Assembly (NCBI GenBank): GCA_035527535.1
Contig: DATLAK010000175.1
Span: 1 to 35,335 of the forward strand
DNA length: 35,335 nucleotides
Source of the DNA: Armatimonadota bacterium
GTDB taxonomy: Bacteria > Armatimonadota > Hebobacteria > GCA-020354555 > CP070648
Direction of reading: 5' to 3'
Program-made: the position numbers and the translations under genes
Part shown: positions 26,020 to 30,339 of the stretch, one piece after another
Layout of the letters: each line of letters begins with the position of its first letter
How positions within the stretch are numbered: the stretch's first letter is position 1
Notes under the pieces: model-generated
What the model was told of the DNA's origin: nothing
Databases searched by the model: none
The model's input: only the letters and a program-made list of their open reading frames with translations

Positions 26020-27126
26020 ATGCTGATCGGGGTTCCACGCGAGACCAAGGACGGGGAGAAGCGGGTCGCCATTACCCCGGCCGGCGTCACCGCTCTGCGC
26101 CAGCACGGGCATGAGGCGCTGGTGGAAGCGGGGGCGGGGCGGGGCAGCGGCTACGAGGACGAGGACTACTGCGTCGCCGGCGGGGCCATCGCGGCGACCG
26201 CGGACGCGGTCTGGGCGCGCGCCGAGGTGGTGCTCAAGGTCAAGGAGCCGCTGCCCAGCGAGTACGCCCGGCTGCGCCCGGAGCTGGTGCTCTTCACCTA
26301 CCTGCACCTGGCGTCATCGGAGCCGCTGACGCGCGCGCTGCTCGATTCCGGCGTCACCGCCATCGGCTACGAGACCGTGCAGACGGATGCGGGCGCCCTG
26401 CCCCTGCTGGTGCCCATGAGCGAGATCGCGGGGAAGATGTCGGTGCAGATCGGCGCGCGCTATCTCGAGGCCGACTTCGGCGGCCGCGGCGTGCTGGTGG
26501 GCGGGGTGCCGGGGGTGCCGCCGGCGGAGGTGGTCATCATCGGCTGCGGGGTGGTGGGCATCAATGCCGCCAAAGTCGCCATGGGCCTGGGCGCCCATGT
26601 CACCATCCTCGACGTTGACCACGAGCGCCTGCGCTACCTCGACGACATCATGCACGGCAACGTCATCACCGTCTATTCCAATTCCTTCAACATAGCGCGC
26701 GCGGCGGGCTACGCCGACCTGCTGGTGGGGGCGGTGCTGGTGGCGGGGGCGCGCGCGCCCAAGCTCGTGACCGCCGACATGGTGCGCGCGATGAAGCGCG
26801 GCGCGGTGATCGTGGATGTGGCGGTGGACCAGGGGGGATGCGTGGAGACGATACGGCCCACCAGTCACTCGCAGCCGACTTATGTCGAGCACGGGGTCAT
26901 CCACTACGGGGTGCCCAACATCCCGGCCGCGGTGCCGCGCACTGCCACCCACGCCTTGACCAACGCGACTCTGCCTTACGTCCTCGATCTCGCGGACTAC
27001 GGCCTTGACGACGCCCTCGCGCGCAACCCCGCCCTGGCGCGCGGGCTCAACCTGCGCACGGGGGAAATCATCCACCCGGCGGTGGCTGAAGCCTTTAATT
27101 CCGGGGACAGTCGACTTAATTATTGA
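26020..27126 (+). CDS. ald: Alanine dehydrogenase, 3' end replaced by mobile-element sequence
   Basis: Ald interconverts alanine with pyruvate plus ammonia using NAD. The protein has the canonical residues Arg15, Lys75 (VLKVKEPLPSEY) and His96 (FTYLHLAS). The NAD fold is VVIIGCGVVGINAAKVAMGLGAHVTILDVD, and DVAVDQGGCVET carries the catalytic Asp. HGVIHYGVPNIPAAVPRTAT is also typical. GGGAGG precedes the ATG at 26020. The last nine residues, NSGDSRLNY, and the stop come from the 26-bp terminal repeat of the RAYT element at 27097. Relatives usually continue about a dozen residues (G-L-P-type tail), so the natural C-terminus is lost. The active site is intact. Confidence 0.95.
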   Translation: MLIGVPRETKDGEKRVAITPAGVTALRQHGHEALVEAGAGRGSGYEDEDYCVAGGAIAATADAVWARAEVVLKVKEPLPSEYARLRPELVLFTYLHLASSEPLTRALLDSGVTAIGYETVQTDAGALPLLVPMSEIAGKMSVQIGARYLEADFGGRGVLVGGVPGVPPAEVVIIGCGVVGINAAKVAMGLGAHVTILDVDHERLRYLDDIMHGNVITVYSNSFNIARAAGYADLLVGAVLVAGARAPKLVTADMVRAMKRGAVIVDVAVDQGGCVETIRPTSHSQPTYVEHGVIHYGVPNIPAAVPRTATHALTNATLPYVLDLADYGLDDALARNPALARGLNLRTGEIIHPAVAEAFNSGDSRLNY

Positions 27127-27846
27127 CGCACAACCGCAATCGTGGTACAAGGGGGCCATGCCACGGGTCGGACGGATCGTTGTGCCAGGCGTACCTCATC
27201 ATGTCACCCAGCGCGGCAACCGCGGCATGGACGTTTTCTTCAGCGACGCTGACCGCGCCGCCTATCTCAGGCTGCTCGGGGAATGTAGCGCCGAGCACGG
27301 CGCCGACCTTTTCGCCTATTGCCTGATGTCGAATCACGTGCATTTGGTTCTGTCGCCACAGCGCGAAGACAGTCTCGCCCTGGCCGTCGGCTGGACGCAC
27401 TTTCACTACACTCGGCGGGTGAACTTCCGCAAGGACTGGCGCGGGCATCTGTGGCAGGGGAGGTTCCATTCCTGCGCGCTGGATGACGCGCATTGTCTGC
27501 GAGCGATTCGCTACGTCGAGCTTAATCCCGTGCGCGCCGGGTTGGTTGAGCAACCTGAGCAGTGGCCCTGGTCAAGCGCCCCGGCGCATCTCAACCATGC
27601 CCCTGACCCGGTGCTCGCGCCGCGGCCGTGGCGGACTGAAGAACTCGACTGGGCGGAGTTCCTGAGTCAGGGCACATCGGAGGCCGACCTGACGCAGGTG
27701 CGACGCAAGACCCGGACTGGCCGGCCCCTGGGCGAAAGTGGGTTCATCGAACAACTGGAATCCCAGCTCGGCCGGCAGCTTCGCTGCCGCAAACCGGGGC
27801 CAAAGGGGCCGAGAAAGCCGTAATTAAGTCGACTGTCCCCGGAATT
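27097..27846. mobile_element. RAYT transposon with perfect 26-bp inverted repeats
   Basis: AATTCCGGGGACAGTCGACT plus TAATTA (27097-27122) recurs as an exact reverse complement at 27821-27846, framing one transposase gene in 750 bp. The left repeat lies inside the 3' end of ald; the right one begins at the transposase stop codon. The same palindrome, without a transposase, occurs at 29236-29300. REP-associated transposases (IS200/IS605-like Y1 enzymes) are known to act on such palindromes. No clear target duplication is seen. Confidence 0.9.
27158..27823 (+). CDS. REP-associated tyrosine transposase (RAYT, Y1 family)
   Basis: RAYTs are single-strand-acting Y1 HUH nucleases related to IS200 TnpA that cut at REP palindromes. 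The 221-residue protein begins MPRVGRIVVPGVPHHVTQRGNRG, the family N-terminus. It has YCLMSNHVHLVL with the metal-binding His60-x-His62 pair, HYTRRVN with the likely catalytic Tyr84, then the family signatures GHLWQGRFHSCALDD and AIRYVELNPVRAGLVE. A basic C-terminal tail (RKPGPKGPRKP) follows. All motifs are intact, so it may be active. The stop codon is the first triplet of the right inverted repeat, so gene and repeat interlock. Confidence 0.93.
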   Translation: MPRVGRIVVPGVPHHVTQRGNRGMDVFFSDADRAAYLRLLGECSAEHGADLFAYCLMSNHVHLVLSPQREDSLALAVGWTHFHYTRRVNFRKDWRGHLWQGRFHSCALDDAHCLRAIRYVELNPVRAGLVEQPEQWPWSSAPAHLNHAPDPVLAPRPWRTEELDWAEFLSQGTSEADLTQVRRKTRTGRPLGESGFIEQLESQLGRQLRCRKPGPKGPRKP

Positions 27847-27887
27847 CCCCTGAATGAGGAATAGAGACGCAGAAACGAGCAGGAGCT

Positions 27888-28352
27888 ATGGAGGAGATGG
27901 GACACGAGACGGTGGCGGTGGTGGAGGCGCCCACCATCGCGAAGCCCGCGCTGCTGACGGACAATGGCTCCGGCTACATTGCCGCCGCCATGGAAGACTT
28001 CCTGCGTCTGCTCGGATTCGCCACCTGCGGGGCCGAGCGCATCACCCGCAGACCACCGGCAAGATCGAGCGGATGCACCGCACGATGAAAGACGATGTCA
28101 CGCTGGTGGTGTGGACCAGCCCGGAGGCCCTGGCCACGGCCATCGGCCGCTTCGTGGACTATTACAATTCCAAGCGCTATCACGAGGCGCTGCGGAATGT
28201 GACGCCAGACGATGTCTACTTCGGCAGAAGGGAACAGATCCCTTGCCCGGCGAAAAGCACTCCAGATCAAGACCTTGATCGCTCGCCGGGACGCCTACCG
28301 GAGACGCGGGATGCTATGCGAGGAAGCAGGGCCAGGAGCACCGGAGGGGTAG
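27888..28352 (+). pseudogene. IS transposase remnant (DDE integrase core), frameshifted
   Basis: Three consecutive pieces in different frames add up to the C-terminal half of an rve-type transposase (IS3/IS481-like). KPALLTDNGSGYIAAAMEDF (about 27940-28010) carries the second Asp. HHPQTTGKIERMHRTMKDDV (about 28045-28105) carries the catalytic Glu and is followed by YYNSKRYHEALRNVTPDDVYFGRRE. A third frame from 28239 reads SLARRKALQIKTLIARRDAY to a stop at 28350-28352. The first catalytic Asp and the N-terminus are missing. The sequence just after (ACCCCCATTTCGTCTCAC, about 28361-28378) looks like an IS right end. It is inactive. Confidence 0.8.
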
Positions 28353-28417
28353 CTTGTTTTTACCCCCATTTCGTCTCACAAACGCTGACTCTCTACAGGG
28401 TACAGATCCTTGACCTC

Positions 28418-28678
28418 ATGTCTGAGAAAGCTCAGGTCAAGGACTGCATCCACGCGCTAAAGGATATGACCCTCCGGTATGAAGACATACACGCTGCCGG
28501 AATGAACAGGTCTCCTGGCGACGTCGTTCATCTCCATACATCTCACGCTCCCAAGCTGGAACCTAGCCACCTACACGTCACTTCTGAAGAGCAAGCAATT
28601 ATCCCTGTCTATAATGCCGACATCACCGGTTTGTTGACACCCCCTCACACCGTTCTTCTCCAATGGACAGTAGACTAA
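28418..28678 (+). CDS. Hypothetical small ORF in the low-G+C island
   Basis: An 86-codon frame (MSEKAQVKDCIHALKDMTL at the start) runs from ATG 28418 to a TAA that overlaps the stop of the opposing acetyltransferase by a few bases. It has no good ribosome site, and I recognise no family; its His- and Pro-rich second half may be fortuitous. A 10-bp inverted repeat (TCCTTGACCT / AGGTCAAGGA, about 28407-28443) spans its start, which would fit an operator or hairpin. It belongs to the A+T-richer segment between the IS remnant and rlmN. Confidence 0.25.
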   Translation: MSEKAQVKDCIHALKDMTLRYEDIHAAGMNRSPGDVVHLHTSHAPKLEPSHLHVTSEEQAIIPVYNADITGLLTPPHTVLLQWTVD

Positions 28679-29166
28679 AGAGACAGCTCCATTTTACAGC
28701 GATCCACCATGGTTCCGTTCGACATCTTTTGCCCCGTCTTTTCGGACATTTCAAAACCACATCTATGATAACAACGCTGTGCGCGCACATTGCTAAGGTC
28801 AGTATAAAGCTCAAGAGACGCAAAACCTCTCAAGCGCAAGTTTTCAATCATCTCCTTAATAACATACTGACCAATTCCCCGTCCCTGATGCGTCGGGAGC
28901 AATGCAATCACTTTTATGAACACTTGCTTACTTTCAGATGAAAGACCATTTATACCCAGCCAGCCTATCGGCATACCTTCATCACAAATTATGTAGTTCT
29001 CCTCATCTGGATCGTTGTCCCATTCGATTATGGCATCTGCCCAAACATCTACGGATCTGGGGACCTCATGTAGTATCGCCATTATCTGATCACTGCTCAT
29101 GAGTTGTTGTAGGAACACCGCATCGTTCTGGGTTACTCGCCTGACCTCGATATTCTCCATTGCCAT
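28675..29166 (-). CDS. GNAT acetyltransferase, horizontally acquired
   Basis: The protein (163 residues) is a single GNAT domain. It begins MAMENIEVRRVTQNDAVFLQQL, has MPIGWLGINGLSSESKQVFIKVIALLPTHQGRGIGQYVIKEMIENL with the QGRGIG acetyl-CoA loop, and ends with LELYTDLSNVRAQRCYHRCGFEM. Substrates of such enzymes range from amines and antibiotics to protein N-termini. Codon use is A/T-rich (many AAA, ATT, GAA), unlike every neighbour, so it is a recent arrival. The start at 29166 follows GTGAGGA. It sits inside the RAYT/REPIN-bounded island between ald and rlmN. Confidence 0.88.
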   Translation of the reverse strand: MAMENIEVRRVTQNDAVFLQQLMSSDQIMAILHEVPRSVDVWADAIIEWDNDPDEENYIICDEGMPIGWLGINGLSSESKQVFIKVIALLPTHQGRGIGQYVIKEMIENLRLRGFASLELYTDLSNVRAQRCYHRCGFEMSEKTGQKMSNGTMVDRCKMELSL

Positions 29167-29235
29167 TTTTTCCTCACATAACGATATCAAATATTCCAGC
29201 AGTCCATTATTATTAAGGAATCATGGGGGAATCAT

Positions 29236-29300
29236 GGGGACAGTCGACTTAATTATTGCAGATGCCTTAAATCAATCGCAATTAAGTCGACTGTCCCCAC
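29236..29300. repeat. REPIN-like hairpin of the RAYT palindrome
   Basis: GGGGACAGTCGACTTAATT and its exact complement (29236-29254 and 29280-29298) face each other across about 25 bases. The arms are identical to the inner part of the RAYT element ends at 27097-27846. No transposase is between them, as in REP doublets mobilised in trans by a RAYT. On the minus strand the left-hand reading enters rlmN and provides its stop codon. Confidence 0.85.
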
Positions 29301-30339
29301 AATTAGGGCGGCCAGCCGCCAGCTGCCCGCACGCCGCCGCCACCTCTTCGCCGAAGGACCGGCGCACCGCGACTTCCACCCCCCGGCGCTCCAGCTCGGC
29401 GCGAAAGGCGCGCATAACCGCAGGCGCGGGGCGGGCGAAGGCGCCGCGCGCCTGGTTGTAGGGGATGAGGTTGACCATGCACGGCAGGCCTCGCAGCCGC
29501 TGGGCGAGGGCGGCGGCCTGGGCCGGCGCGTCGTTGACCCCCGCCAGCAGGCAATACTCGAAGGCTACTTTGCGTCCGGTGTGGGCGGCGAAGTCGCGCG
29601 CGGCGGCGACCACCGAGGCCAGCGGATGGCGGCGGTTGACCGGCATCAGGCGGCTGCGCAGGTCGTCGTCGGGCGCATTGAGCGATACCGCCAGGTGCAC
29701 GCCCAACCCCTCGCGCGCCAGGCGGCGCATCTCCGGCGGCAGCCCGCACGTGGAGATGGCGACGTGGCGGGCGCCGAAACCGAGGCATGCCGGGTCGAGG
29801 ATGATGCGCACCGCCTTCACCAGCGCGTCGTAGTTTGCGAGCGGCTCGCCCATGCCCATGAACACGACATTGGACAACCGGCGCTCGTCATCATCCGCGC
29901 GCGCGAGGAGCAATTGCCCGACGATTTCGGCGGCGGTGAGGTCGCGCTCGAAACCCATGCCGCCGGTGGCGCAGAACGCGCAGCCGTAGGCGCACCCCAC
30001 CTGGCTGGAGATGCAGGCGGTGCGACGGCGCGGGTAGGGCATGATCACCGTCTCGATGTGAGCGCCGTCGGGCAGGCGCAGCACCAGCTTGACGCCGCCG
30101 TCGCGGGCCGGGCGCCGCGCAACCGCGGTCAACGGGTGCACCGCCGCCTGTCGTCCCAGCTCGTCCCGCAGCGCCTGCGGCAGGTCGCTCATGTCCGCGA
30201 AGCCGCGCGCCCCGCGCTGGTATACCCAGCGCAGGACCTGGCGGGCGCGATAGGGCTCGTGCCCGCGGTCGGACAGGAGCTGCTCGAACTCGTGGGGCAA
30301 CAGGCCGCACACGAAAGGCATGGAAGGCATGGATGACAT
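29272..30339 (-). CDS. rlmN: 23S rRNA/tRNA adenine-C2 methyltransferase, with REP-derived tail
   Basis: RlmN is a radical-SAM enzyme that methylates A2503 of 23S rRNA and A37 of some tRNAs. The 355-residue protein has ACISSQVGCAYGCAFCATG with the cluster cysteines Cys116, Cys120 and Cys123. NVVFMGMGEPLANYD, HVAISTCGLPPEMRRLA, the HLAVSLNAPDD stretch and the methyl-carrying Cys337 (AAACGQLAAG) follow. The final residues NCGDSRLNCD and the stop are encoded by the adjoining REPIN; the natural end should be near AAGRP. The start is uncertain (ATGs at codons 1, 4 and 7, none with a clear ribosome site). Confidence 0.94.
   Translation of the reverse strand: MSSMPSMPFVCGLLPHEFEQLLSDRGHEPYRARQVLRWVYQRGARGFADMSDLPQALRDELGRQAAVHPLTAVARRPARDGGVKLVLRLPDGAHIETVIMPYPRRRTACISSQVGCAYGCAFCATGGMGFERDLTAAEIVGQLLLARADDDERRLSNVVFMGMGEPLANYDALVKAVRIILDPACLGFGARHVAISTCGLPPEMRRLAREGLGVHLAVSLNAPDDDLRSRLMPVNRRHPLASVVAAARDFAAHTGRKVAFEYCLLAGVNDAPAQAAALAQRLRGLPCMVNLIPYNQARGAFARPAPAVMRAFRAELERRGVEVAVRRSFGEEVAAACGQLAAGRPNCGDSRLNCD

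Follow-up and report, generated by a model that had tools for sequence, protein, structure and literature searches.

In the genome of an Armatimonadota bacterium (GenBank assembly GCA_035527535.1), two unrelated conserved genes, ald and rlmN, both end within the same mobile repeat, namely the terminal repeat of a RAYT-like (TIRYT) transposon for the former and a two-arm derivative of this transposon for the latter. Very probably, the transposon and its derivative were inserted next to AT-rich, AATT-type sites near gene 3' ends, the C-terminal tail containing GDSRLN being incidental and selection filtering the insertions that persist. The window, i.e. the whole stretch of 35,335 nucleotides that was analysed (contig DATLAK010000175.1), belongs to a metagenome assembly of 3.24 Mb in 192 contigs, and its relevant features are listed in Table 1.

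The repeat arm, GGGGACAGTCGACTTAATT, occurs as four exact copies in the window, at 27103-27121 and 29236-29254 on the plus strand and at 27822-27840 and 29280-29298 on the minus strand, none of this four-arm set being expected by chance in shuffled sequence. All four arms contain GGGGACAG, which fits the motif GGGGWSAS of terminal inverted repeats (TIRs). The transposase encoded between the first two arms matches the NCBIfam model NF047646 (REP_Tyr_transpos) with 75.4 bits (4.2e-21), slightly short of the curated cut-off of 80, and its alignment conserves H60-x-H62 together with the N and Y positions. Its stop codon TAA (27821-27823) overlaps the right arm, so that, with ald and rlmN, three genes end in the repeat. 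GTAG is absent at both arms, the flanks being AATTCC, AATCAT and AATTGT. Further paired copies exist elsewhere in the genome and are mostly flanked by AATTCC on one side and by variable sequence on the other; since only one flank is near-constant, they do not fix the exact target or cleavage position. Regarding the stop codons, which the initial annotation had placed in several frames of the palindrome, an arm entered in phase 0 closes the gene at +24 and one entered in phase 2 at +17, but phase 1 runs on (GTVDLI...).

Table 1. Features of the window involved in the ends of ald and rlmN
Feature	Position	Strand	Support
ald, alanine dehydrogenase	26020-27126	+	TIGR00518 (alaDH), 528 bits; PF01262/PF05222
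Left TIR of the transposon, AATTCCGGGGACAGTCGACTTAATTA	27097-27122	+	Inverted repeat, perfect over 26 nt, with 27821-27846
RAYT/TIRYT-like transposase gene, 221 aa	27158-27823	+	PF01797 (Y1_Tnp), E 1.4e-10
Right TIR of the transposon	27821-27846	-	Perfect 26-nt partner of 27097-27122
Displaced native 3' end of ald (probable), GGAATTCCCCTGAATGAGGAATAG = GIPLNEE-stop	27841-27864	+	Joined flanks give ...HPAVAEAFGIPLNEE-stop
Two-arm non-autonomous copy (REPIN-like), 63 bp, no gene	29236-29298		Two arms, one hairpin
rlmN	29272-30339	-	TIGR00048, 353 bits; match stops at residue 344 of 355

As the initial annotation had claimed, ald is closed by the terminal repeat of the transposon: its reading frame enters the exact left arm so that the first G of GGGGAC opens a codon (phase 0, GGG-GAC-AGT-CGA-CTT-AAT), and residues 360-368 of the C-terminus ...VAEAF-NSGDSRLNY, i.e. 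NSGDSRLNY, as well as the stop are supplied by the element end. Mobile DNA does give both genes their tails and stops, but the tail of ald, described at first as an addition, is probably a replacement of the last seven native codons and not an extension, because the probable native end lies just past the right arm, where GGA ATT CCC CTG AAT GAG GAA TAG reads GIPLNEE and a stop. Once the flanks are joined, the frame is kept whether or not AATTCC is assigned to the element and leads to a native-looking end like that of orthologues, which supports the insertion model. In the joined-flank region, relatives read ...YPAVAAAFGMECGEV-stop, ...HPAVAKAFGMEATAV... and ...HPAVAEAHGMRY...; orthologues end in ...AFGMECGEV-stop or ...AFGMEATAV..., and in alanine dehydrogenases of solved structure the conserved block stops at about VAEAF(G), i.e. 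near the junction. The short GIPLNEE has a firm match to orthologues at its first residue only. If replacement did occur, the intact ald would read ...VAEAFGIPLNEE-stop across GGAATTCC, a reconstructed target seven codons ahead of the native stop, at which the gene would have been split and the arm would have provided a substitute tail and stop in whatever frame entered it. This target resembles the element's own ends and, as reconstructed, is compatible with insertion after AATTCC with zero duplication; a single-strand insertion into the lower strand that leaves the target unduplicated, as in IS200/IS605 relatives, can be inferred from this arrangement. A close relative with an empty site was found neither among 60 relatives nor in a GTDB scan, the ald and rlmN orthologues found being all distant. 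Directly downstream of the displaced ald end, the window also carries what remains of a transposase integrase core (rve_3, 27854-28300).

A rival reading is an assembly artefact, in which unrelated contigs would have been joined by repeat arms and the fusions would be unreal. In its favour is the metagenome assembly in 192 contigs. Such a misjoin is nevertheless highly improbable, as the element is effectively single copy (its nearest in-genome relatives are distant transposases with 28-29% identity), a complete ald in one frame results when its flanks are joined, and the same arrangement was found again in other assemblies.

The closure of rlmN by the REPIN-like copy was likewise confirmed. 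This gene enters the exact right arm of the two-arm copy in phase 0 at GGGG and ends in ...ACGQLAAGRP-NCGDSRLNCD, the element, together with its AATTGT flank, accounting for residues 346-355 (NCGDSRLNCD) and for the stop. Since the family match ends ahead of the tail and relatives have variable tails beyond ACGQL, the insertion point is at the end of the functional protein or immediately beyond it; the derivative would thus have landed beyond the last conserved residue. The native stop of rlmN is not recoverable with certainty and, for both genes, native ends are to be taken as reconstructions. Little harm to either gene is presumed, ald having lost its last seven residues and rlmN having been hit after its last conserved ones, and both proteins presumably still work, judging from their intact conserved domains. 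At the RNA level, the two-arm copy is predicted to fold with -41.7 kcal/mol (z -10) into a hairpin spanning the rlmN stop codon, so that a role as terminator or stabiliser is possible; for the single arm at ald, folding is no stronger than that of shuffled sequence. Between the two elements, the window holds an AT-rich island (28380-29235, 44-50% GC vs. 68% for the window) that encloses a gene for a GNAT acetyltransferase (28675-29190, minus strand) and looks foreign.

Beyond these two genes, copies were mapped by pattern searches, with stretches of contigs taken around the matches. With at most one mismatch to GGGGACAGTCGACTTAATT, the genome holds 16 arms at nine loci (contigs C12, C19 with two loci, C27, C90, C175 with two, C185 and C187). 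As against a random placement, which the initial annotation had given as the alternative, all nine loci have a gene 3' end no more than 50 nt away, compared to 17% of random intergenic positions in the same sequence (p = 1.3e-7), this limit having been picked after the distances in this genome were known. Gene calls beyond the window are our own and rely on codon composition; for most genes ending beside a copy, they are supported by Pfam. At seven loci, the copy lies 42, 22, 10, 44, 33, 18 and 11 nt past the native stop, the other two being the fusions; a tail is thus created at only two of nine loci (ald and rlmN). Elsewhere in the genome, long open frames that enter an arm were rejected as antisense or shadow frames from codon-position composition and codon scoring, the real genes there stopping 10-44 nt ahead of the arm. 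AATT is 5.6-fold more frequent between genes than within them (1.45 vs. 0.26 per kb, from 19 intergenic and 15 genic sites), and target composition therefore explains part of the 3'-end bias. Insertions elsewhere were probably purged by selection, a filter that we infer.

The bias extends to a wider family. Among 80 homologous loci from many phyla, most have TIRs of the form AATTCCGGGGACA(C/G)NATACTTAATT, i.e. GGGGACA(C/G)-like, and 122 elements in 17 other genomes, drawn from those with such loci, were surveyed. For 46 of these elements a 3' end is found at a distance of up to 50 nt, where 12.4 were expected (a 3.7-fold excess), and 5' ends show no enrichment (11 vs. 12.9 expected). Discounting genes that enter an arm from its inner side, such as the element's own gene (L202, L229, L244), true fusions are rare and fall in phases 0, 1, 1 and 2: an Amidase_3 protein ending in ...LNSGDTILNY (phase 0, as in the window), a U32 peptidase in ...RKIRGTPY (phase 1), a RES-domain protein in ...VSGTRY (phase 1) and a VanZ-like protein in ...FRGHHT (phase 2), each followed by a stop. 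Given fusions in all three frames and the 3' excess in 17 genomes, the 3'-end bias is general across the family and the frame is not fixed. Frame targeting is rejected by these fusions in other frames; the earlier proposal that 3'-end insertion is tolerated or even targeted is supported in part, by the concentration at 3' ends in this genome and elsewhere. A preferred frame is not supported. That ald and rlmN share one phase has a chance of 1/3.

Whether the transposase actively chooses gene 3' ends or stop regions, by sequence, terminator structure or exposed single strand, instead of such sites being merely tolerated, has to be weighed against these counts. The gathering of all nine copies at 3' ends, the excess in other genomes with none at 5' ends, and the published 3'-end preference of REPs and QMITEs speak for a choice; yet the ald target lies within coding sequence at GGAATTCC, which points to sequence, AATT itself is more frequent between genes, and some genomes are without excess (e.g. 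G061, 2 of 13 elements vs. 1.7 expected). Besides, copies now present have already passed selection, so that targeting and tolerance are not separable from them. Active targeting is considered unlikely, and insertion next to AATT-type sites followed by selection is the preferred reading.

With regard to the tail, GDSRLN would be an incidental translation of the arm. It is not a natural protein ending, a candidate rejected as the ald and rlmN orthologues without the element end in other residues. It is extremely improbable that the tail is functional, for localisation, stability or as a common tag, and that the arm sequence is retained for it: one phase is common to ald and rlmN, and a similar phase-0 tail (NSGDTILNY-stop) closes an amidase in an unrelated genome, but seven of nine copies in the genome yield none, fusions elsewhere produce different tails in different frames, and what loci of many phyla conserve is the arm as terminal repeat DNA, read into by a gene or not. 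That the shared C-terminal peptide of the initial annotation has any importance is not supported. The amidase in question, an N-acetylmuramoyl-L-alanine amidase of a deltaproteobacterium (genome G068, locus L242, 1493-3001), ends in a related arm with the phase of ald and near-identical residues, which have arisen independently. It is also quite improbable that TIRYT arms across phyla constitute portable gene ends, with a sequence shaped to supply, on insertion at a 3' end, a stop preceded by a brief tail that is tolerated (N-S-G-D-x-x-L-N-Y in phase 0), in which case the transposon would live in gene ends at low cost to the host.

Among known systems, the element, from its sequence, best fits the TIRtrons/TIRYT, a class of tyrosine transposases whose terminal repeats carry GGGGWSAS (Di Nocera et al. 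2013, PMC3733652), by its Y1 (HUH) RAYT-related transposase gene set between long TIRs instead of REPs, by a repeat overlapping the gene 3' end and by further copies of the repeat in the genome, alone, as dimers or in groups; it differs by its arm, an own variant whose exact sequence was matched in no other genome searched (none of 60 relatives, no record in the GTDB scan). The gene-end figures of that study cover GTAG and CGTC REPs, not TIR repeats. With the RAYT/REP/REPIN systems (Nunvar 2010; Bertels and Rainey 2011), it shares a transposase with inverted repeats and non-autonomous hairpin doublets near genes, and 29236-29298, with two facing repeat copies and a short spacer in one hairpin, resembles a REPIN doublet; however, the window element has terminal repeats instead of REPs and no GTAG tag, occupies about nine loci instead of hundreds, and scores under the RAYT cut-off. 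GTAG REPs provide TAG stops to flanking ORFs (PMC3733652) and, as here, give a neighbouring gene its stop from the repeat end and crowd 3' ends, whereas the stop here is a TGA after a phase-0 tail of eight to nine residues and not the tag itself. In Coxiella, QMITE1 and QMITE2 affect annotated functional genes at 3' ends only, and EnhC of one strain takes 33 C-terminal residues from a QMITE, with the stop immediately downstream (PMC5896051), i.e. an element-derived C-terminus and 3'-end hits as well, but from another and larger mobile element family, in which QMITE2 duplicates 7-9 bp of its target. In enterobacteria, the amidase ECA3499 and the threonine dehydrogenase ECA0168, also conserved enzymes, have lost their native stop to RU-1/ERIC-type repeats that continue their 3' ends in frame (Delihas 2007, PMC2759123), but these repeats are larger (about 103-168 bp) and have no known transposase.

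Repeat-supplied stops and C-terminal tails are thus on record, as is tolerance of the C-terminus as their explanation. What is new is the sequence variant, the displaced native end probably kept beside the element, and the measured 3'-end excess and frame counts for GGGGACA-type RAYT-like elements in 17 genomes, a poorly studied type. The window offers a clear case where a transposon end replaced, in all probability, the C-terminus of one conserved enzyme and its derivative capped another, and a warning for annotation, since identical short C-terminal tails on unrelated proteins may be translated repeat DNA.

Some minor observations concern the edges and relatives of the element. Short tandem copies of its edge occur in the window at 29217-29246 (GGAATCATGGG twice) and, around 1481-1500 of locus L007, AATTCCGGGG is found twice ahead of the arm, with similar edge repeats at other loci of the wider family; these are possibly footprints of repeated insertion or excision. 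Two single arms (L001 and L012, both 1460-1525) have in common a segment of 66 bp with 95% identity. This segment begins similarly to the window transposon at its left end, and the two arms are probably truncated relics of a related element. Finally, a second element family is present in the same genome (L017, L023 and L024, on contigs C37, C125 and C127), with arms GGGGACA(C/G)ACGACTTGATT and related internal sequence.
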